A stretch of DNA of 64,000 bases from Gammaproteobacteria bacterium (lineage in GTDB: Bacteria > Pseudomonadota > Gammaproteobacteria > SZUA-152): the NCBI GenBank assembly GCA_029882975.1, contig JAOUJW010000002.1, forward strand, positions 62,001-126,000. Direction: 5' to 3'. Made by a program: the position numbers and the translations under genes. This document shows positions 3,610 through 14,610 of the stretch, in pieces. Positions within the stretch are counted from its first letter, which is position 1. Every line of letters begins with the position of its first letter. Under the pieces are notes generated by a model. It ran no database searches. It saw only the letters and a program-made list of their open reading frames with translations, and was not told the origin of the DNA.

Positions 3610-4626
3610 TTACTTATTTGCTTTTTCTTTTTCCAGTGCTGCTATTTTCTTCTCAAGATTTTTCAGTTTTTTGTTCAAGCCGGCAAAATTGAACCACTGC
3701 TCCCCAGCCACAGGGAACTCCAATTGGGAACCATAGACTCTCCAGGACTCATCCCAATTAGCCGGATCTTTAAAGCCCAGTAGACGCAATTGTAAATAAG
3801 TTAAGGTTGAACGTGTACCTGTTTGACAATACGCCAGAGTTCGTTTGTTTCGATCCAAAGAACCAAATGCCTTTGTCGCAGCGTCCGGATCAAGATAGGC
3901 AACAGGTTCCAGTTTGCCGGTTTTTGGATTCTTTTTCTGAGCCAATGTGTCGACATGAGAAATATTGGCCGTCACATTCGGAACATGCCCACCTCGTATG
4001 GCGCGAATATCTGACCCTTGAAATTCCTTTTTAGTACGTGAATCTATCAATTGGGAATTTTTGGCAGCACCCTTAGCGATTCCCAACACCTCATCCGTTG
4101 AACCGTAACGCCCGGCTACTACGTTGACCTTGTAATTACTGGGCTTGCGAATAACCGGCTTGCTGTCCAACCGCTGTCCGGCATCACGCCAAGCAGCCAA
4201 ACCACCATTCAAAACATGCACATTCTTATGGCCTACATATTCGGCAACCCAAAACCCCACCGAAGCATCGGTCAAGGTTCCCATACCGTCATAGTAAAAG
4301 ACAATGTGGTCGTCATTGTTAATGCCGACTTTACTGAACAGGCGTTCGTATTTGCTTGAATCCCGAAAAACTCTGGCCGTAGTATCCCGTAATGCATTCT
4401 TGCAACGGTTGCCTAAACTAATCGCTCCGGGTATATGCCCTTTGATATAATCCTTTAAGTCCCTGCAATCCACAATCACCCAATTTCGGTCATTGCTGTG
4501 CTTCTTCAGTTCGTCTGCCGTGACTAACAAAGTGGGATTTGCCCATTGCGCTGCGTTCACCACACCCAGAAACAAGACACCCCACACACCGACTAGGCAT
4601 GCAGCCCAACGTTTTGCAGCGTTCAT
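3610..4626 (-). CDS. Periplasmic tandem-domain sulfurtransferase (rhodanese)
   Basis: 338 residues. A signal peptide (about residues 1-25) is followed by two rhodanese domains (about 32-150 and 172-305). The second carries the active-site loop CQTGTR with Cys267. The first has an Asp (D113 in YYDGMGT) where the catalytic Cys would be, as in classical two-domain thiosulfate:cyanide or 3-mercaptopyruvate sulfurtransferases. A C-terminal charged helix (LNKKLKNLEKKIAALEKEK) predicts a coiled coil, unusual for the family and perhaps used for oligomerisation. It should transfer sulfane sulfur from thiosulfate or a related donor in the periplasm. Upstream (4702-4719) lies a palindrome shared with the DsrE-like gene at 13159, suggesting common control with the sulfur relay island. 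Confidence 0.92.
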   Translation of the reverse strand: MNAAKRWAACLVGVWGVLFLGVVNAAQWANPTLLVTADELKKHSNDRNWVIVDCRDLKDYIKGHIPGAISLGNRCKNALRDTTARVFRDSSKYERLFSKVGINNDDHIVFYYDGMGTLTDASVGFWVAEYVGHKNVHVLNGGLAAWRDAGQRLDSKPVIRKPSNYKVNVVAGRYGSTDEVLGIAKGAAKNSQLIDSRTKKEFQGSDIRAIRGGHVPNVTANISHVDTLAQKKNPKTGKLEPVAYLDPDAATKAFGSLDRNKRTLAYCQTGTRSTLTYLQLRLLGFKDPANWDESWRVYGSQLEFPVAGEQWFNFAGLNKKLKNLEKKIAALEKEKANK

Positions 4627-4701
4627 AGTTACACCTCCACCTGATTATGTATGGAATTTCTCCCCTTACGCCTAAGTATTGCCAATACCCCCGGATATGA
4701 A

Positions 4702-4719
4702 ATGATTCAAATGCATCAT
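4702..4719 (-). promoter_or_regulatory. Candidate operator, copy 1 of a shared 18-bp palindrome
   Basis: On the minus strand this reads ATGATGCATTTGAATCAT, an imperfect inverted repeat centred 84 bp upstream of the rhodanese start codon (4626). It matches 16 of 18 positions of ATGATGTATTTGCATCAT at 13539-13556, which lies at nearly the same distance from another sulfur gene. A CAATACT-type -10 around 4676-4682 would place the palindrome near -40, the usual position of an activator site. That promoter assignment is inference. Confidence 0.6.
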
Positions 4720-4797
4720 TTGGTGAGAAAGCCACAACGGCTATAGTGAACAAATAGAGCAGATAAACGGCACACCTACACTAAAACAGACACTTAT

Positions 4798-5946
4798 ATG
4801 AATATTGAATCCGAAGCATTGCTGTCCATTATTATCCCCGTGTTTAACGGTGAAAAAACAATCGGACTTTGCCTTCAATCTCTGCGAACATCCTATGATC
4901 CAAACTGTGAAGTCATTGTCATTGATGACGGTTCCACCGATGCCACCGGGGAAGTGGCAAACCGGTTCCCCTGTCGCTATTTACGCCACAGACGTCGCCA
5001 AGGGGCTGCGGCCGCCAGAAATCTGGGCGTACAACACGCCCGTGGTCAACTGTTGTTTTTTATAGACGCCGACTGCATGGTATTACCGGAAACGCTGCAT
5101 CATGTACGCAGCAGTTTGCAACAGGAACCGATAAATACCATTGTCGGCGGCACATACCTGCCAAAAGCACTGGACGGTGGTTTTTTCAGCGATTTTCAGG
5201 CGATTTTTGTAAATTTCTTTGAAACCAGAAATCATTTACCCGACCATGCTCCCGACTACATTGCCACCCACGCAATGGCAATGCAACGCGAATTGTTTGT
5301 GCAACATCCAGGATTCAATAATGACAAACTTCCGATTCTGGAAGACGTGGAATACAGCCATCGCATGCGCCAACACGGCATTCAACTGAGGATGTCGCCA
5401 CATATTCGGGTACAGCATTATTTTGGTTTTAACCTGGTAAGGTCTTTACGCAACGCAATACGTAAGTCCATGGTGTGGACACAATACAGTCTGAATCGAA
5501 ATGACGTATTTGAAAGCTCTGGAACTGCTTCCCTGGAACTTAAAATCACAACAACCGTATTACCTATCATTGTCGCCATGAGCCTCCTGGTACCCGGTAG
5601 GGTCGCGGCAGTGATGGCATTGCTCGGCCTGCTGACTGTCAATATGCAAGTTAATTGGAAGTTTATAGGCACCATAAACCGGGTACACGGCCTGAACTTT
5701 ACGTTTTTTTCATGCCTGTATTACTTTTTTGTGTATCCACTGGCGGTGGCGACCGGAGCCTGCGCGGGTATTGCTGCTTTTCTATTACAATATTTCCAGT
5801 ACCAAACAATGCCCCGTTCAGAGATGGCTTCTCGCTCAGGGCTGTCTTCTCGCTCAGGGCTGTCTCCCGGTTCAAGGCTGTCCTCTCGCTCAGGGCTGTC
5901 CTCTCGCTCAGGGCTGTCTCCCGGTTCAAGGCTGCCCAATGTATAG
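4798..5946 (+). CDS. Family 2 glycosyltransferase with membrane tail and repeat C-terminus
   Basis: 382 residues. The N-terminus begins LSIIIPVFNGEKTIGLCLQS, the GT-A fold opening, with the nucleotide-binding DDGSTD at 43-48 and the metal-binding DAD at 90-92. An EDVEYSHRM segment near residue 185 matches the acceptor-side ED motif. Three hydrophobic segments (about 245-335) anchor it in the inner membrane. The last 38 residues are hexapeptide repeats (SSRSGL, SSRSGL, SPGSRL, twice), encoded by six 18-bp units; this tail is not part of the GT2 fold. Its stop overlaps the start of the next gene by 8 bp, so the GT and the radical SAM protein form one operon. It probably modifies an envelope glycan or a lipid; the acceptor is unknown. 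Confidence 0.88.
   Translation: MNIESEALLSIIIPVFNGEKTIGLCLQSLRTSYDPNCEVIVIDDGSTDATGEVANRFPCRYLRHRRRQGAAAARNLGVQHARGQLLFFIDADCMVLPETLHHVRSSLQQEPINTIVGGTYLPKALDGGFFSDFQAIFVNFFETRNHLPDHAPDYIATHAMAMQRELFVQHPGFNNDKLPILEDVEYSHRMRQHGIQLRMSPHIRVQHYFGFNLVRSLRNAIRKSMVWTQYSLNRNDVFESSGTASLELKITTTVLPIIVAMSLLVPGRVAAVMALLGLLTVNMQVNWKFIGTINRVHGLNFTFFSCLYYFFVYPLAVATGACAGIAAFLLQYFQYQTMPRSEMASRSGLSSRSGLSPGSRLSSRSGLSSRSGLSPGSRLPNV
5827..5934 (+). repeat. In-frame 18-bp tandem repeats (6 units, arranged A-A-B twice)
   Basis: Six units of 18 bp each end in CTG. Four are of the type TCTCGCTCAGGGCTG preceded by a serine or alanine codon; two are TCTCCCGGTTCAAGGCTG. The order A-A-B-A-A-B makes two 54-bp super-units. 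The units are nearly identical, which points to recent slippage or duplication. The array ends 4 bp before the start codon of the downstream gene. Confidence 0.95.
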
Positions 5947-7090
5947 CCCCATTACCCATTTACCGGCCTTATGGCTAAAACGCCCGGTGCAGCTGACCTT
6001 CTTCCTCACGCGACGTTGCAATGCCCATTGTCCATATTGCTTTTATTTACAAAGTAACGATGCTCCTACCGGAGAAACCAAAGACGAATTACAGCTCCCG
6101 GAGATTGAACAAATTTCGGCATCGATGAAAAATCTTCTATGGCTGGCTTTTTCAGGCGGCGAAATCTTCTTACGCCGAGATCTGGTGGAAATCAGCAAAA
6201 CATTTTACCGCCACAACCACCCGGTCTATATGTTGTTTCCCACTAACGGACAAAACCCGGATCGGGTTTTTCGAATGGTGCGTGACATCGCCGGCTCTTG
6301 CGTGAATAGCAATATTATAGTCAAACTGTCTATAGACGACCTCTATGAGGAACACGACCGCTTAAGAGCAACACCGCGCAGTTTTGAGAAAACCCTGGAA
6401 ACCTATGCAAAACTCAGCACCCTTTGCCATAAACATTCCAATCTGCAAATTGGTGTCAATACGGTGTTTTGTGCGCAAAACCAGGACCGGATAGATGCCA
6501 TTATCGACTTTGTCAGCAAGTTATCCGCTGTAAAGACCCATACTCTGTCTCTGGTCCGCGGCGATTTACGGCAGAAAAACTATAAACATGTTGACATGGA
6601 AAAATACCGTCGGGCCACCCAGCGACTGGCTCAGTTTATCCAAAGACAGCAATCACCGCACTATTCCTTCACAGCCGGAAAACTCAAGATCGCTCAAGAC
6701 GTACTCCAACGACGACTCATCGACCGCACCATGCGCAAACAAGACCGGGTAACACCCTGCTATGCCGGCTCGGTTAATCTAGTGCTAAGTGAATCCGGAG
6801 AAGTCTATCCGTGCGAACTCCAGAGCCGCAGCATGGGCAACATCAAAACTTACCACTACCGCATGGATCAACTTTTACGCGACCACGCAGCTAAAGCTGC
6901 CCAAGCCTGGGTAAAACAGAACCACTGTTTCTGTAGTCATGAATGCCACATGATGACCAATATTCTGGCCAACCCCGCTCGCTACCCGGCTTGGTTTAAA
7001 GAATATGTCCGCTTATTTCACGCGCAGAACCCTTTGTTTCCCGGGCGGGAAGACGTTCCCCGGCCGCAACATGGGTTTGGTGACGGGTAA
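5939..7090 (+). CDS. Radical SAM protein with SPASM-like C-terminus
   Basis: 383 residues from the ATG at 5939, which overlaps the GT2 stop (5944-5946). The frame stays open upstream through the repeats, but this is the first ATG giving a normal domain start. The radical SAM cluster motif is CNAHCPYC (Cys27, 31, 34), and GGE follows at 73-75 for SAM binding. Cys-rich segments near the end (PCYAGS...GEVYPCEL, then NHCFCSHEC) fit a SPASM/twitch domain holding an auxiliary iron-sulfur cluster. Such enzymes modify peptides or small metabolites. Here the partners are a glycosyltransferase and, on the opposite strand, a B12-radical SAM protein. No precursor peptide gene is evident. Its 3' end overlaps that of the next gene by 95 bp. 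Confidence 0.88.
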   Translation: MYSPITHLPALWLKRPVQLTFFLTRRCNAHCPYCFYLQSNDAPTGETKDELQLPEIEQISASMKNLLWLAFSGGEIFLRRDLVEISKTFYRHNHPVYMLFPTNGQNPDRVFRMVRDIAGSCVNSNIIVKLSIDDLYEEHDRLRATPRSFEKTLETYAKLSTLCHKHSNLQIGVNTVFCAQNQDRIDAIIDFVSKLSAVKTHTLSLVRGDLRQKNYKHVDMEKYRRATQRLAQFIQRQQSPHYSFTAGKLKIAQDVLQRRLIDRTMRKQDRVTPCYAGSVNLVLSESGEVYPCELQSRSMGNIKTYHYRMDQLLRDHAAKAAQAWVKQNHCFCSHECHMMTNILANPARYPAWFKEYVRLFHAQNPLFPGREDVPRPQHGFGDG

Positions 7091-8513
7091 ACAAATCCTT
7101 CTCCAAATACAACCAGAACAAACTGACCAGCCCACGAATCCCCACAACGATATCCTGCAAGCTACGCAGTGCCATTAATTTTCTTAACAAAAATCCGGGT
7201 CGACTGTAGAAGCGTCGCAAGGCCCGTTGCCGCAAACCTTGAATTTGTTGCTGGGTCAGTGTGTAGGGTATAAACGCAGCGCCTTGATAGGTATATTGCC
7301 GTAAGCGATCAGCCACCCGACCGTATTTGGGCAAGTGCTCATAGAGATAAGTTCCGGGAAACGCGGTGAGTGCATGAAAGTTAGCGTAATCCGGATCCAA
7401 ACGCACCGCAAAATCGATGGACTGCAACGCATCTTGGTAGGTTTGGCCGGGGATACCAAACAAAAACGGCGTAGTGACGCGCAACCCTACCGCTTTTGCG
7501 TCACGCACTGCTGTTTCGATATGTTCGACCTTAATTCCCTTGCGCAGGGTATTCAGATCTTTCTGTACACCGCTCTCCGCCCCTATCAGAACAGCCCAGC
7601 AGCCGCTGTCCTTCATCGCCTGTAGCAGCTTACGATCCACCTGATTGGCACAAACGGAAGCAAACCAGGTAAAGTCCAACCCAGCCTGACGAATACGCCG
7701 GGTCAATTCCAGTAACCGATCATAGTCGGATGCCAAGGAATCATCGATAAATTTGATTTCACGGTAACCGCTATCCAGACACCATTGAATTTCTGCCATG
7801 ACGTTGTCCAGGCTGCGATAACGCACCCCACGGACGCCGCTGCGGCGATTCTTGTCCATTTGATAACAAAAAATGCAGCGCCGATTGCATCCGCGCGATG
7901 TCATCACCACCGCCACCGGAGCCCGTTGATAACCGGCCGGGGGCGGTAAGTAGCGCATCTCATCTTGCAGTAATTGCCGCGCCGGCATGGCCAATTGATC
8001 CAAGTCCTCTTGCGGCAGTCGGTCCGGGTTATGAATCACGTCATCGTCGCAGCGAAAACTCAAACCCAGCACCGAGTCCATGCGGCGTCTACCCAAAACG
8101 GCATCCGCAAGCTCTACTACCGCTTTTTCGGCTTCACCGCGAATCACCGCGTCCACGCTCAGCTCCTGTAGACACAGCTCCGGCATACTGGTGGGATAAG
8201 GCCCACCGGCACAAGTAAAACAGCGCGGGATGACCCCTTTCACATCCCGCGCCGTTTCTACCGCTCCCTCCCATGAAAAACAAGTAGCGTACACACCCAC
8301 CCATTGAGGTTGAAATCGGCGCACCTTATCCAGAATCTGAGGATGAGACAGAAAAGCCCCATTATAAAACTCCACCTCATGTCCTTGCTGCAATAGCGCG
8401 GCTGCCACGTACAAAGTACCCAGAGGTTGCCAATAATTAAGTTGAGCATTGGCGGTTTTCTTAGGGAACAAATCCTCAGGCTGCCATGCCGGAATGATCA
8501 GTGCACATTTCAT
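6996..8513 (-). CDS. Cobalamin-binding (B12) radical SAM protein
   Basis: 505 residues from ATG 8513; a GTG 12 bp upstream is also in frame, but TGAGGG is well spaced for the ATG. The N-terminal 150 residues are a B12-binding Rossmann-like domain (ALIIPAWQPEDLF..., GTLYVAAALLQQGHEVEFYN, VGVYATCFSW). The radical SAM core follows with CNRRCIFC (Cys209, 213, 216). The layout matches the BchE/PhpK-type class, whose members methylate unreactive carbons or perform ring chemistry, or act in lipid/hopanoid and antibiotic pathways. The C-terminal 100 residues contain an amphipathic, partly hydrophobic helix (VSLFWLYLEKDLF). The substrate is unknown. The 3' end lies inside the 3' end of the convergent radical SAM gene. 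Confidence 0.88.
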   Translation of the reverse strand: MKCALIIPAWQPEDLFPKKTANAQLNYWQPLGTLYVAAALLQQGHEVEFYNGAFLSHPQILDKVRRFQPQWVGVYATCFSWEGAVETARDVKGVIPRCFTCAGGPYPTSMPELCLQELSVDAVIRGEAEKAVVELADAVLGRRRMDSVLGLSFRCDDDVIHNPDRLPQEDLDQLAMPARQLLQDEMRYLPPPAGYQRAPVAVVMTSRGCNRRCIFCYQMDKNRRSGVRGVRYRSLDNVMAEIQWCLDSGYREIKFIDDSLASDYDRLLELTRRIRQAGLDFTWFASVCANQVDRKLLQAMKDSGCWAVLIGAESGVQKDLNTLRKGIKVEHIETAVRDAKAVGLRVTTPFLFGIPGQTYQDALQSIDFAVRLDPDYANFHALTAFPGTYLYEHLPKYGRVADRLRQYTYQGAAFIPYTLTQQQIQGLRQRALRRFYSRPGFLLRKLMALRSLQDIVVGIRGLVSLFWLYLEKDLFTRHQTHVAAGERLPARETKGSAREISGHIL

Positions 8514-8813
8514 TTTGACCCTCACTATTGGGTACAGATTTATAATCTAACAACAAGTTCGGAGCCTCGAAGTTTACAGCATCATAGAGTAAACAAAAGC
8601 GCTCAGTCATTATAACAACGTTAAGCGTAGGAACCATGAATCCAATTCATCAAACCAGCACCAAGAACCGTTACCGTTGTGGAACGCCGTTTGGATAACC
8701 TAGAGTATTGGCCCCAACATTCATTGTGCAGGTACAATTTTGGCCTCCTGTTGTAATACGGTAGTTGGATCTACACTGGCTTCACATTTACCGACATCAT
8801 TCTTACCCTGGTC
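8514..8813. other. Non-coding interval between the B12-radical SAM gene and the sulfur island
   Basis: About 300 bp with no supported frame. It must hold the promoter of the B12-radical SAM gene; an AT-rich block around 8535-8560 (minus strand GATTATAAAT) is a possible -10. It also holds the 3' end of the sulfur island transcript. I find no convincing terminator. Confidence 0.4.
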
Positions 8814-9029
8814 TTATTCTTGTAATTGCTGGTAGTACTGCTGCATGTCTTCGGACACACCCGCACCCGCTGCAGCATTGCTATCGGCACTGACACCATA
8901 ACCACCGCTTTCAGCAATTTCAAAAAAACCCGGCTCCACGCCTGTGTGTTTCGACATCATGAACCCGAGTGTATAGGCAATCAAGCCGGACACTACCACA
9001 ATAGCCAACCAAAGTTTTGTATTCACCAT
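8814..9029 (-). CDS. Small single-pass membrane protein, copy 2 of a homologous pair
   Basis: 71 residues from ATG 9029 (GGAG nine bases upstream); an in-frame TTG at 9047 is less likely. One N-terminal transmembrane helix (about residues 5-26, LWLAIVVVSGLIAYTLGFMM) is followed by a short linker and a polar tail ending EDMQQYYQQLQE. It shares its layout with the product of 9060-9242: LW at the start, a VV-G-G helix, a G-V/I-S segment, then acidic residue + two + Y + three + LQ at the end. It lies last in the run yeeE-tusA-small-small. I do not recognise a named family; a small accessory subunit of the YeeE/YedE transporter is my inference. Confidence 0.72.
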   Translation of the reverse strand: MVNTKLWLAIVVVSGLIAYTLGFMMSKHTGVEPGFFEIAESGGYGVSADSNAAAGAGVSEDMQQYYQQLQE

Positions 9030-9279: not shown

Positions 9280-9525
9280 TCACGCTTTCTCTATGCGCCA
9301 GACGAAGTTACCGTCGTCTTTCTTTTTATCCACAATCTCATCACCCTCCACCTCACACATGGATGCGATGGACTCTCCGGACGATGGGTTATCAAAAATC
9401 ACATCGATGAATTCACCTGAGGCGATCTTGGAAAGCGCTTTTTTTGTGTAAATCTGCGGATGTGGGCAAACATAACCTTTCACATCCAACACATATCCAC
9501 CTTCTGTCTGTTTTTCAAATTTCAT
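9280..9525 (-). CDS. tusA: TusA/SirA-family sulfur carrier protein
   Basis: 81 residues, ribosome site GGAGGTG six bases before the ATG. It has the compact TusA fold with the sulfur-accepting Cys20 in GYVCPHPQ, the CPxP motif of the family, followed by the usual acidic/basic alternation. TusA carries persulfide sulfur between donors such as rhodanese or DsrE-type proteins and acceptors. It lies 21 bp downstream of the YeeE/YedE gene, an arrangement seen in many bacteria where imported thiosulfate or another sulfur species is handed to TusA. The orthologue relationship to E. coli TusA (tRNA thiolation) is not certain. In this context a role in oxidative sulfur trafficking is just as likely. 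Confidence 0.93.
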   Translation of the reverse strand: MKFEKQTEGGYVLDVKGYVCPHPQIYTKKALSKIASGEFIDVIFDNPSSGESIASMCEVEGDEIVDKKKDDGNFVWRIEKA

Positions 9526-9546: not shown

Positions 9547-10977
9547 TTACACACCACAAGCTGCAAATTCCTTATCCAGTTTGCGCTGTGTCCACCAGTT
9601 AAAGAACTTCACACCAATATAGGCACCACCGATCATCCCAACACCAAAGAGCCAACCGGACACATCACCCTGTGAAACCCGGACGAAAAAGGCGCCTACA
9701 TTGCAACCCAGCCCCAGACGTGAACCGATACCCATTAGGGCGCCACCAATCATGGCCCAGATAGCCAACTCCCAGGTGGGTTTTTTGAACTTGAACTCAT
9801 TGTGTAACAAAGCCATCACCGCAGCGCCTCCAATCAGCGCCAAGGACATCCAGTCCGCCGGATTGATGGCCGGGTTGGGTATACCGTTGACGAAACCAAA
9901 ATAAATGTTATCCATGTTCTCTGCGCCCATTTTGTTAAACACCCACCCCACCCATTGGGCTTCCTGAGTGGTGACATACCAATAACCGGGATCAAATACA
10001 GTCCCATTGACTGACAAACCAAAATCAAAGCCCATACGATCCAACAGCGTCCCGGCATTTTGTACGCCGAACTTTACCCGCAACCCCTGTGTCACCAACA
10101 TTTGCAAGCCGCAGAAGATACCCAAAATCAGCCCGGCAATAGCCGTTCTTTTCGACGCCATTATCATGGTCCAATAGCCGGCGATTTCATCTTTGAACGT
10201 CGTCTTGGATTTAATTTTTAGTTGCTTTTTCATATAGCCCCGACGGGACCAACCGGCGTATACGAACATCAGCAAAATAGTGGCGGGAATGATCACTCCA
10301 ATTAGCACATTACCCACGAAGGCACCGGTTACGGAATCGTTGCTTTGTCCCATCATTGTGGCATATGTCAGCACCGGCTGGTCCCAAACATAGCCTGCGA
10401 GGTATTGATCCACCCAACCGTCTCCGGCGTTAATGGATGCCGGTAGCCCTTTCGACATGGCGGACTGATGCCAGGAGTCCGGTACCAGTTTATTAAACCA
10501 ACCGCCCACATCGGCAAATATGGCCTGGGTGACGCTAATAGAAAGAATCACTATGAGTGCCACGCCGTTTCCTTCTCCGGTTTTATACAGCGAACCCGAG
10601 GCACAGCCGCCGGCAAACACCATGCCGATACCAAAAATAAATCCGGCAATGGTGGCGTGCACACTGGTGGGAGCCGCGTGAAAAGTACTTAATCCGGTAG
10701 CGCTCACAAAAGCGCTGACCAGAGCAAACAGGACGGTTGCGATCATGATACCAACGGCCATTCGCGGCACCCCAACCGCAAACAAGTCTCGAAATGCCGA
10801 TGAAAAACAAAAGCGACCGTATTGCAAACACATGCCGTAAACGAATCCGAACCACAGGTAAACGGACAGATATATGTAGTATTCATTGTAGGCATAGGTC
10901 CCAATACTCACCAATGCCAGCACTCCCACAATGATGTACGCCCACATCACATTTTTTTCCAGCTTCTGCGTAACCAT
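9547..10977 (-). CDS. YeeE/YedE-family sulfur-compound transporter
   Basis: 476 residues from ATG 10977 (AGGTG six bases upstream); a GTG nine bases earlier lies inside that ribosome site. At least eleven hydrophobic segments. Three cysteine motifs are visible: QYGRFCFSSAFRD near residue 55, GGCASGSLYKTGEGN near 125 and LGLGCNVGAFF near 430. They match the conserved cysteines that relay thiosulfate through YeeE-type proteins by transient S-S interactions. At 476 residues it is longer than the 330-400 usual for YeeE and lies at the long YedE end. tusA follows immediately, and two micro membrane proteins follow that. Role: import of thiosulfate or a related sulfur species across the inner membrane. 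Confidence 0.93.
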   Translation of the reverse strand: MVTQKLEKNVMWAYIIVGVLALVSIGTYAYNEYYIYLSVYLWFGFVYGMCLQYGRFCFSSAFRDLFAVGVPRMAVGIMIATVLFALVSAFVSATGLSTFHAAPTSVHATIAGFIFGIGMVFAGGCASGSLYKTGEGNGVALIVILSISVTQAIFADVGGWFNKLVPDSWHQSAMSKGLPASINAGDGWVDQYLAGYVWDQPVLTYATMMGQSNDSVTGAFVGNVLIGVIIPATILLMFVYAGWSRRGYMKKQLKIKSKTTFKDEIAGYWTMIMASKRTAIAGLILGIFCGLQMLVTQGLRVKFGVQNAGTLLDRMGFDFGLSVNGTVFDPGYWYVTTQEAQWVGWVFNKMGAENMDNIYFGFVNGIPNPAINPADWMSLALIGGAAVMALLHNEFKFKKPTWELAIWAMIGGALMGIGSRLGLGCNVGAFFVRVSQGDVSGWLFGVGMIGGAYIGVKFFNWWTQRKLDKEFAACGV

Positions 10978-11026
10978 AAGATTCACCTTTCTCGCGTCAC
11001 TGTTTTGGTTTCGGTTTAGTTTTGGT

Positions 11027-12838
11027 TTATAACTTTACTGTTTCCGCACAATCTTCACTTCGATAAACATGTGTCAGAACCTGATATCGGAATACCCTGT
11101 CCGTCACAACAAACGCTTTACTTAATCGATAAGACGCCGCCCATGCAGGCTTATCAAGCCTGCTCCTACCATCCGAAATAATCACCAATGCTGCCAGGTC
11201 GGCACATTGTCCACCTACCCCAGACGCATCGTCCCATACTTTATAGCGCCAACCGTTATGAAACTCCCACGTGAATCGCACCGGGGAATTGATAGGAATT
11301 GTTGCGAGCACTGGGCCTGGAGTATATTCGGGGTCTAGATAAATCGTTTTTTGGGTATACGCATCTAAAAACGGAAGGGCAATATTTGGATTTATGGCCG
11401 TTCGCCGCACAGGTGTAACGACCACAACCACATTACTTTCCGGTAATTTATTTAGGTACGCCCCCGCGTTTTTGAGATTAACCATGCTCATACTTTGCAA
11501 AGAACCACTGTATGCCACTACCAGCAACACAACGGACATGGCGATTGCGTTCAAACTGATTTGACGAACCATGAACGAACTAAACAATTGCAGCAAACCC
11601 CTGGAAGCCAGGAGCGCCAGTATCGGATAAAACACCAAAAAATAACGCGCTCTGGCGACCCCCAGAATAATCAAGCCGGCAAACAACACTACCGCCAACA
11701 TGACGTGCCAATCCATTCGACGGATCGCCACCACTACTGCACCCAATGCGGCCAGACTCACATAAGGATGGATTTGATAAAAAAAAGTGGAAACGTGACT
11801 TTCACCCCACCAGCTTAGACCGGGCAATTGAAACCCTTGCAGCAACTGCCACTGTTGTTGAAACACCGTAAATTTCCAGGCCATCACCGATCCCAACAGT
11901 GTCAACACTCCGCTCAACAATAAAAAACCGGTTTTTATTCCGGCTCTCAAACGGATATGCCCGGACCGATTGTAGAGAAAAGGAGCAATGCAAATCCAAC
12001 CCACCAGTACCCAGGTATTGTATTTACTCAAAAGAGCCGGCAAGCACAAAGCCACGGCTGTACTGATTGCAACCCAGCTTTGGCGCTGCACCGCCGCAAT
12101 CACAGCGCGTATAGCCAACACAAAGAAGAACATGGCAACCACATCCACTAATACTTGCGAAACCTGCACCAGTAAAAACGGAAATGCCAACAATAGACCG
12201 GCTGCTACCAAACCGGTTCGTTCATCCCAAAGAGATTTCCCGATCGAATACGTTAAATACAGGGTTGTCGAAAACAACACACTGCAAAAAACCTGAACAA
12301 CTAAAACACTTTCACCAAACAGAGTAAACAATACACCATAGAGCAACGGCACCATCGGCAGGTCTGTCCAAACCGCAATATCCGAACCCCATTGTTGCAA
12401 AAAATGGAACACGCCGTGCGTAGCCACGGCGTTGGCATAAGTGAGGTAGCGGGCACTGTCTATGATGACTTGCGGGGAAGACCACAATACAACGGTCAAA
12501 CCGAAACCCGAACCCAGGATGAGGCCCAGTTTTGCTGAAACAGTTCCAACATATTGAATCAGACGGTTTCCCAGCAGCACCAATACCGATGAAAAACCAA
12601 GAATGGGTAATAACAAGTCCGCACTAATGGTCCAGCGCCAGCTTAATAAACGATTATCGTCCCATATCCTAAATACGTACTGCAGCAGAAATACCAGCGC
12701 TGTAATTAAATACAACAACAATATTTGTAAGCGACGGGTATCAAGATTCAGAATGGATTCGGCACCGACAATGCAATCGCGCAGGCCATACTCAAACCGC
12801 TGCGGACTGCACACAACCTTGTCGGTTTTACCGGCCAT
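11027..12838 (-). CDS. GT39-like polytopic membrane glycosyltransferase
   Basis: 603 residues with about eleven to thirteen transmembrane helices and a soluble periplasmic C-terminal domain of about 150 residues (from 'NAGAYLNKLPESNVVVVVTP'). The first periplasmic loop contains IIDSARYLTYANAVA, equivalent to the D-containing acceptor loop of ArnT/PMT-type (GT39/GT-C) enzymes that transfer sugars from polyprenyl-phosphate donors. It lies inside the sulfur island: 49 bp separate its stop from the yeeE start and 109 bp separate it from the DsrE-like cluster. A glycosyltransferase is unexpected there. It may be co-transcribed by accident of insertion or may glycosylate an envelope component of the system. 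Substrate unknown. Confidence 0.8.
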   Translation of the reverse strand: MAGKTDKVVCSPQRFEYGLRDCIVGAESILNLDTRRLQILLLYLITALVFLLQYVFRIWDDNRLLSWRWTISADLLLPILGFSSVLVLLGNRLIQYVGTVSAKLGLILGSGFGLTVVLWSSPQVIIDSARYLTYANAVATHGVFHFLQQWGSDIAVWTDLPMVPLLYGVLFTLFGESVLVVQVFCSVLFSTTLYLTYSIGKSLWDERTGLVAAGLLLAFPFLLVQVSQVLVDVVAMFFFVLAIRAVIAAVQRQSWVAISTAVALCLPALLSKYNTWVLVGWICIAPFLYNRSGHIRLRAGIKTGFLLLSGVLTLLGSVMAWKFTVFQQQWQLLQGFQLPGLSWWGESHVSTFFYQIHPYVSLAALGAVVVAIRRMDWHVMLAVVLFAGLIILGVARARYFLVFYPILALLASRGLLQLFSSFMVRQISLNAIAMSVVLLVVAYSGSLQSMSMVNLKNAGAYLNKLPESNVVVVVTPVRRTAINPNIALPFLDAYTQKTIYLDPEYTPGPVLATIPINSPVRFTWEFHNGWRYKVWDDASGVGGQCADLAALVIISDGRSRLDKPAWAASYRLSKAFVVTDRVFRYQVLTHVYRSEDCAETVKL

Positions 12839-13158: not shown

Positions 13159-13461
13159 TCAAAACACCAGTACATGATCCGATTCGTGGTTCATCATGGC
13201 ATTGTTGAACTGGCTACCACACACGATATCCTTGGACAATTCACTCACATCAACGCCTTGTTCTTCCGCGCTATGCCTGCAAAGACTTAAACTTACACCG
13301 GCTAATTTGCACAAATCCCTAAAGGCCACTTGCTCCAGAAACCGCGTCCCCACATCCATACAAAATACGGTCACTTCATGCCCCTGCCGCGATGCTGACT
13401 GAACCAACTCGGCAACATGGCGAAAATATTTGTCGCTGGTAACCAATATTCCTAGTTTCAT
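13159..13461 (-). CDS. DsrE/TusD-like sulfur relay protein
   Basis: 100 residues, GGTGG ribosome site before ATG 13461. MKLGILVTSDKYFRHVAELVQSA is the beta-alpha start of DsrE-like proteins. Cys61 in 'AGVSLSLCRHSAEEQGV' aligns by position with the persulfide-carrying Cys of DsrE/TusD, which lies in a similar V-x-L-x-x-C...A...G segment. The C-terminus (HESDHVLVF) is the terminal strand of the family. The gene follows the first DsrE-like gene after an unusually long 230-bp gap that contains a palindrome (13539-13556) and a probable -10 (TATAAAT near 13510), so it likely has its own promoter. Predicted role: cytoplasmic persulfide transfer, possibly to or from TusA. Confidence 0.78.
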   Translation of the reverse strand: MKLGILVTSDKYFRHVAELVQSASRQGHEVTVFCMDVGTRFLEQVAFRDLCKLAGVSLSLCRHSAEEQGVDVSELSKDIVCGSQFNNAMMNHESDHVLVF

Positions 13462-13538
13462 GTTTATCCACCCTGTTTCGTCAGCGTTTAACTTCTCACC
13501 CTTCCATTTATAAATAAACTTTACTCCGGTTTTTGGGT

Positions 13539-13556
13539 ATGATGTATTTGCATCAT
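13539..13556 (-). promoter_or_regulatory. Candidate operator, copy 2 of a shared 18-bp palindrome
   Basis: The plus strand reads ATGATGTATTTGCATCAT: perfect 6-bp arms (ATGATG/CATCAT) around six bases. The centre lies 86 bp upstream of the DsrE-like start codon at 13461, and about 36 bp from a TATAAAT -10-like element. The copy at 4702-4719 upstream of the rhodanese gene matches in 16 of 18 positions when reversed. The adjacent PAS-LuxR regulator is the obvious candidate binder, which is inference. Confidence 0.65.
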
Positions 13557-13691: not shown

Positions 13692-13964
13692 TTAGTAAGG
13701 CAATACGTGATCGTAAGTCGTCAGTTTATCGGCCAGCTCCCCTAAAGATAACAACTCAACATCGTCGTTGCTCTCGCAATTGGAGTACATATGTATCCCC
13801 AATTCCTTCCCGGTTTCTATATTAAGCTGGTTGTCTTTGGTTTTTTGTAGTTTTCTGTCCACGAAAAACACATCCACTGTATCGTCTGCCAGAGTCAATC
13901 CTATGGACATGCGCAAAGCTTCGTCCTGACGACCGGATACTACGACTGCGATTTTCTTTTTCAT
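13692..13964 (-). CDS. DsrE-fold sulfur relay-like protein
   Basis: 90 residues from ATG 13964, with AAGGA seven bases upstream. The frame extends further back but would run through the regulator gene. The start MKKKIAVVVSGRQDEALRMSIGLTLADDTVDVFFVD is the first beta-alpha-beta of DsrE/TusC proteins (bundled substrate pocket, 'A..A..L'). A single Cys63 (MYSNCESNDD) could carry persulfide. The last residues (YDHVLPY) form the closing strand also seen in the next gene. It starts 10 bp after the stop of the PAS-LuxR gene, so regulator and relay protein share a transcript. Sequence similarity to named DsrE, DsrF or TusC is too weak for a symbol. Confidence 0.72.
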   Translation of the reverse strand: MKKKIAVVVSGRQDEALRMSIGLTLADDTVDVFFVDRKLQKTKDNQLNIETGKELGIHMYSNCESNDDVELLSLGELADKLTTYDHVLPY

Positions 13965-13974
13965 GTCTGGATCC

Positions 13975-14610
13975 TTATAAGAATTTGTGGCGGTATGCAT
14001 AGGCCACCGCCTCGGTTTTACTATGGACAGCCAGTTTTTTCTGGATATGTTGAATGTGATTTCTGACTGTAGTTTGACTGATGTGTAGTCTGTCGGAAAT
14101 GGTCCGGCTGGCCACACCTTCCGCCATCAATGACAGTACTTGTGTTTCTCTGGGGGTCAAGCGCGTTTGATTTACTCTATCGGGAATCACTTGTTTGCTT
14201 TCCTTAGGCTTACGCTGACTGTGATCCATAAGACCTAACACATCGGTATGACTGCTGCGATGCAGCAAATGCATGATGTGCCAGTTTTTCTTGCAACTGG
14301 AAGGTAGCAGAATTATGTCCACCGACAGATTAACGCCTTGCCCGGTACTGTCCTTAACTCTAACCAGAAAGGATTTTGGCGCTTCGGAAACCGGAAGTTT
14401 GGATACATCGCATTGTTGCCGGCACCAGCGGCGGCCGGAAACCGGATGACACCCCTGTAAGACGCTACAACAGGGACGCCCCAGCGCCCAGTGCTCGGAG
14501 TAACCCAATAGTTCCTCACAGCCCTGGTCCCAATAAATAATTCTCTGGCGACTATCAATGGCAAAACTGCCATCCACCGTTGTGTACAAAATGTCGGCTA
14601 GGGTACCCAT
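13975..14610 (-). CDS. PAS-LuxR transcriptional regulator with cysteine cluster
   Basis: 211 residues; GGGGGG lies eight bases before ATG 14610. Residues 1-115 form a PAS domain (DGSFAIDSRQRIIYWDQGCEELLG) carrying cysteines at 31, 47, 48, 54, 63 and 67. The group from 47 to 67 (CC-x5-C-x8-C-x3-C) could bind iron-sulfur or zinc, or sense thiols. After a charged linker, residues 148-211 are a LuxR/FixJ helix-turn-helix (LTPRETQVLSLMAEGVASRT, then ISQTTVRNHIQHIQKKLAVHS). There is no receiver domain, so signalling is by the PAS domain directly. It heads the DsrE-like operon and is the likely local regulator of sulfur genes. An FNR-like box lies 84 bp upstream of its start. Confidence 0.86.
   Translation of the reverse strand: MGTLADILYTTVDGSFAIDSRQRIIYWDQGCEELLGYSEHWALGRPCCSVLQGCHPVSGRRWCRQQCDVSKLPVSEAPKSFLVRVKDSTGQGVNLSVDIILLPSSCKKNWHIMHLLHRSSHTDVLGLMDHSQRKPKESKQVIPDRVNQTRLTPRETQVLSLMAEGVASRTISDRLHISQTTVRNHIQHIQKKLAVHSKTEAVAYAYRHKFL

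Follow-up and report, generated by a model that had tools for sequence, protein, structure and literature searches.

A conserved palindrome at two promoters of a sulfur-gene cluster is a putative operator of an adjacent PAS-LuxR regulator

Two copies of a palindrome in a sulfur-gene cluster

The window analysed here, a 64,000-nucleotide stretch of gammaproteobacterial DNA, contains a group of sulfur-handling genes interspersed with radical-SAM and glycosyltransferase genes, together with a gene encoding a PAS-LuxR regulator (Table 1). An 18-bp palindrome, referred to below as the box, occurs twice in this group: once between DsrE-like gene 1 (DsrE1) and DsrE-like gene 2 (DsrE2), where it reads ATGATGTATTTGCATCAT, and once between the divergent rhodanese and GT2 genes, where it reads ATGATTCAAATGCATCAT (reverse complement ATGATGCATTTGAATCAT). 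A preliminary description of this DNA had counted 16 of 18 bases in common between the first copy and the reversed second copy, with both centres 84-86 bp before a start codon, and re-reading bore this out, the distances being 86.5 bp to the DsrE2 start at 13461 and 84.5 bp to the rhodanese start at 4626. The centre of the second copy also lies 87.5 bp before the start of the divergent GT2 gene (4798), a point missing from that description. Allowing up to three mismatches, and with each palindrome scored on both strands, the window holds five matches to the motif; the expectation is 0.30, and 100 shuffles never gave as many as five.

Table 1. Positions in the window of the two boxes, the candidate promoter hexamers and the surrounding genes.
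Feature	Position	Strand	Remarks
Two-stretch rhodanese, downstream of the 4702 box	3610..4626	-	Pfam Rhodanese 1.7e-29, in two stretches
-10-like hexamer AATACT, rhodanese promoter	4675..4680	-	Offset 30.5 from box centre
Second box, in the rhodanese-GT2 intergenic region	4702..4719	.	Centre 4710.5
-10-like hexamer TATAGT, divergent glycosyltransferase promoter	4742..4747	+	Offset 31.5 from box centre
GT2 glycosyltransferase, divergent from rhodanese across the 4702 box	4798..5946	+	
Radical-SAM protein	5729..7090	+	Start codon uncertain
B12-binding radical-SAM protein	6996..8525	-	
TusA-like sulfur carrier	9280..9525	-	Query for finding related loci
YeeE/YedE-type sulfur transporter	9547..10986	-	Pfam Sulf_transp 1.5e-40
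PMT-type glycosyltransferase	11027..12838	-	Pfam PMT_2 6.5e-9
DsrE-like gene 2 (DsrE2), first gene downstream of the 13539 box	13159..13461	-	Pfam DsrE 3.9e-5
TATAAA	13507-13512		4 bp beyond TATTTA
-10-like hexamer TATTTA, DsrE2 side	13511..13516	-	At the expected 31.5-bp offset; weak on its own
18-bp palindromic box upstream of DsrE2	13539..13556	.	Core 13540-13555, centre 13547.5
DsrE-like gene 1 (DsrE1), between regulator and box	13692..13970	-	No Pfam match; name rests solely on position and resemblance
PAS-LuxR (GerE) one-component regulator, proposed box-binding protein	13975..14610	-	Pfam GerE 4e-19, PAS 7.7e-5

We collected related loci by scanning 84,980 species genomes with an alignment of TusA and kept 80 of them, many from metagenome-assembled genomes in which mis-binning is possible and all under the taxon names of their submitters. 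The preliminary description had treated the two box-associated genes as unrelated sulfur genes; this view does not hold, because in the related loci DsrE2 and the rhodanese bracket a single conserved cluster of ~11 kb, so that the two boxes mark promoters at its ends. The gene order in relatives is PAS-LuxR, DsrE1, box, DsrE2, PMT glycosyltransferase, YeeE/YedE, TusA, two small membrane proteins, in some cases an FAD oxidoreductase, B12-radical-SAM, radical-SAM, GT2, box, rhodanese and, sometimes, Usp.

The FAD-dependent oxidoreductase adjoins the B12-radical-SAM gene in several relatives (for example L080 8336-9757 and L081 11513-12949) and was not seen at its place in the window, 8525-8814. 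The N-terminus of the rhodanese resembles a signal sequence. The window transporter does not reach the NCBIfam cut-offs for TsuA or YedE, and we set aside an assignment of the transporter and the TusA-like protein to the thiosulfate uptake system TsuA/TsuB (YeeE/YeeD), as both match general Pfam families and score below the NCBIfam TsuA and TsuB cut-offs. GT2 carries tandem repeats (SRSGLSSRSGLSPGSRL...) at its 3' end (5850-5946), and a different gene of this genome has a repeat of like appearance (SPEPKDSPESKD...; L086 12388 onward). No stretch resembling the cluster region was found among the plasmids searched. We speculate that the glycosyl and radical-SAM genes hint at a modified product of the cluster.

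Conservation of the box and co-occurrence with the PAS-LuxR gene

The product of the regulator gene has the architecture of a one-component PAS-LuxR protein, with an N-terminal PAS domain (residues 7-56), a C-terminal LuxR/GerE helix-turn-helix (HTH; residues 151-205) and, in the Pfam search, no receiver domain; nor did it match an autoinducer-binding domain, the PAS domain being present instead. An AlphaFold2 model likewise places a PAS domain before the HTH (mean pLDDT 83.5, pTM 0.54). Alignment of 34 orthologues revealed three invariant cysteines (Cys47, Cys63 and Cys67) and a fourth, Cys31, present in 33 of the 34, as well as invariant H114 and W27. Within the HTH, residues T181, R183-N184-H185 and Q187 are invariant, in keeping with the near-invariant operator, and this match speaks in favour of binding of the box by the regulator.

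The palindrome is found at both cluster positions in related loci of Gamma-, Beta- and Alphaproteobacteria and of Nitrospirae, with the core TGATGCA-WW-TGCATCA. Across 67 aligned sites the consensus is TGATGCAWWTGCATCA, that is, ATGATGCA-WW-TGCATCAT, with outer arm positions that are nearly invariant and flanks that are usually A and T. Besides the window, 28 related loci carry the box upstream of the rhodanese. In the DsrE1-DsrE2 gap the box was present in 30 of 34 loci with the regulator and in none of 17 without it (Fisher p = 4e-10, a value that, like our binomial ones, ignores relatedness, and that overstates the number of independent events because regulator and site change only a few times on the tree). 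Restricting the comparison to gaps of at least 150 bp gave 25 of 26 regulator-bearing and none of 10 regulator-less loci. The exceptions are few: three of the four regulator-bearing loci that lack the DsrE1-DsrE2 box retain the rhodanese box and the contig of the fourth ends early, while another four loci show a rhodanese or DsrE2 box and no regulator, on contigs that stop short of the regulator's place. On the tree the regulator changes four times and the site five times; of the independent contrasts, four over all branches, two are well supported, and in these two regulator and site change together, numbers too small for a sign test to reach significance. Loci that have the same cluster and neither regulator nor box (L110, L114, L115, L120, L121, L123, L129, L140, L155 and L165) are in most cases titled Nitrospirae or Thermodesulfovibrio.

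The sites are also largely confined to the cluster at the level of whole genomes. In the 5.18-Mb genome from which the window derives, the only two exact matches to the motif are the window boxes; a further match appears at one mismatch and two at two mismatches, and the core TGATGYATTTGMATCAW at up to one mismatch gives five matches against none for a backward control. In 27 regulator-bearing genomes, searched for the 18-mer at up to one mismatch, we found one to four sites each and 60 distinct sites in total, of which the cluster accounts for about 53 (a hand count from their listed places), whereas the backward control gave one site. In relatives without the regulator, all 12 of the matches whose context was checked lie inside open reading frames. 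Genome-wide, matches to the motif do not occur at the rate of chance, and the shared operator-like element and local regulon put forward in the preliminary description are strongly supported, the box being kept upstream of orthologues as well.

Two extra intergenic boxes of the window's genome lie between divergent cytochrome c genes (L085 7227) and just before a lectin-domain gene (L086 8336), and not by classical sulfur genes; no convincing -10 hexamer was found at the expected spacing from either box. Among the own-genome matches, one (C1:165931) was discarded as lying inside an open reading frame that we recognised by eye as priA-like, and the two intergenic ones, at C46:8226 and C1:66335, which lack the -10 spacing of the cluster promoters, are not claimed as members of the regulon. 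Of the seven near-perfect sites outside the cluster in the regulator-bearing genomes, three (L213 3024, L218 2999 and L212 3036) stand before Usp genes, in two genomes, or before a cytochrome c7 gene, in one, suggesting possible small extensions of the regulon.

Promoter geometry and the probable mode of action

We defined a -10-like hexamer as one with at least four of six matches to TATAAT. At an offset of 31.5 bp, measured from the centre of the box to the start of the hexamer, 22 of 31 DsrE2 promoters and 19 of 29 rhodanese promoters have one; on the GT2 side of the rhodanese box it is present in 8 of 29 loci, and on the gene-less flank of the DsrE2 box there is no enrichment across loci. 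The window itself has imperfect hexamers on two of its three sides (DsrE2 and rhodanese) and a good one, TATAGT, on the GT2 side. A search for -35/-10 promoter pairs found none around the DsrE2 site and one weak match, at shuffle level, near the 4702 site. Taking the hexamer as the -10 element would put the centre of the box at about -43, so that the fixed spacing points to the position of a class II (lux-box) activator site. Lack of a -35/-10 pair at the DsrE2 site is expected on this geometry, because such a promoter would depend on an activator.

Taken together, these patterns in the sequence make it very probable that the PAS-LuxR protein encoded immediately upstream has the palindrome as its operator and uses it for class II activation. 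The local regulon of the preliminary description is retained in this reading and the unrelatedness of its genes is not; the candidate activator, encoded at 13975-14610, had gone unmentioned there. A dimer of the GerE HTH would bind both 7-bp arms (TGATGCA-NN-TGCATCA) of a box whose centre is at about -43, take the place of the missing -35 element and recruit RNA polymerase to a -10 element starting about 31.5 bp from the box centre. The 13539 box would drive DsrE2 and the genes after it, and the 4702 box would act on the rhodanese gene and, probably, on the divergent GT2 and radical-SAM genes of the window. Provided that the genes are co-transcribed, as we infer, two boxes could switch the whole sulfur-trafficking and glycosyl cluster together, with the PAS domain and its conserved cysteines presumably sensing a sulfur or redox signal.

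The co-occurrence of operator and regulator would also fit a repressor, with a PAS-LuxR dimer blocking RNA polymerase at the -35 region, which the box overlaps, until a signal releases it. We consider this unlikely, however, since the 31.5-bp spacing is fixed throughout the family and puts the centre near -43, the geometry of a class II activator, where a repressor site would have no need of a single fixed distance, and since no -35/-10 pair was found around the DsrE2 site. It is somewhat less probable still that a different, unlinked regulator of the LysR, MarR, Rrf2 or another LuxR-type family binds the box and that its association with the PAS-LuxR gene is a coincidence. Other regulator families also use imperfect palindromes of such a length, and these genomes encode several GerE proteins, including other LuxR-type proteins in that of the window; yet on the tree the box comes and goes with the neighbouring PAS-LuxR gene, the loci read in detail share no second regulator gene within the cluster, and genomes without the PAS-LuxR gene have checked matches only inside open reading frames. 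The NsrR/Rrf2 half-site is AAGATGYATTT and the FNR site TTGAT-N4-ATCAA; both were dropped as identities for the box, TGAT-N8-ATCA, because their spacing does not fit. Chance palindromes might have been entertained for just two short AT-rich sites in one window, but the excess of matches there, the conservation at orthologous positions across classes, by which chance is already refuted, and the gathering of most whole-genome sites in the cluster leave this explanation a vanishingly small probability.

An activator role for the PAS-LuxR protein is therefore the reading we carry forward. A broader proposal, which we regard as evenly poised between right and wrong, is that a one-component activator whose PAS domain bears several cysteines directly senses a sulfur species or redox state and, through a dedicated operator usually present in two copies per genome, switches on a sulfur-trafficking/radical-SAM/glycosyl cluster across Proteobacteria and Nitrospirae, and that this regulatory system is previously undescribed. 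A literature search for the box sequence returned nothing relevant, and in the titles and abstracts returned for the cluster and regulator we found related sulfur genes and neither the PAS-LuxR regulator nor the box. For a conserved and functionally uncharacterised cluster, a probable regulator with its operator and promoter geometry can now be named, which makes the inducing signal testable.

Comparison with known regulatory systems

The PAS-LuxR architecture is known, whereas the operator sequence and the regulon differ from known ones. Streptomyces PAS-LuxR regulators, which are mostly pathway-specific, bind the 16-bp sequence CTVGGGAWWTCCCBAG in the -35 region (PMC9774167). Like PimM, PteF, AmphRIV and NysRIV, the window regulator joins a PAS domain and a LuxR-type HTH in one protein, and the box proposed as its operator is likewise a 7-2-7 palindrome with a central WW, whose deduced position near -43 also corresponds to theirs. 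The arms, in contrast, are TGATGCA here and CTVGGGA there, so that the 67-site consensus departs from the PimM-type one, and the proposed target is a sulfur-handling cluster of Proteobacteria and Nitrospirae rather than antibiotic genes. A further property of the window regulator is the conserved Cys31/47/63/67 of its PAS domain.

The lux box is a ~20-bp palindrome centred at -42.5 (PMC4471428), and the present system resembles LuxR quorum sensing in its GerE-type HTH and in the position of its box; it differs in box sequence and in having a PAS domain where LuxR has an acyl-homoserine-lactone domain. The best full-length fold matches of the predicted regulator are the PAS/LOV-HTH one-component proteins EL222 and VqmA (18-20% identity), a likeness of fold; of these, EL222 is light-activated and VqmA binds DPO.

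Among regulators of sulfur metabolism, NreB/NreC of Bacillus licheniformis, a PAS sensor and a DNA-binding regulator, activate sulfur-oxidation genes on sulfide (PMC9918477). They are an analogue of the proposed regulator in function. NreB/NreC form a two-component system, a kinase with a regulator that becomes phosphorylated, and their targets are sqr and pdo, whereas here sensor and HTH form one protein and the cluster is a different one. SoxR and sHdrR are ArsR-type sulfane-sulfur repressors (PMC10451225, PMC12423496); they too control sulfur trafficking and oxidation genes but are not of the PAS-LuxR type. If the cysteine-bearing PAS domain does sense sulfur or redox state, the cluster would add a one-component PAS-LuxR activator beside the repressors SoxR, sHdrR and YrkD and the two-component NreBC.
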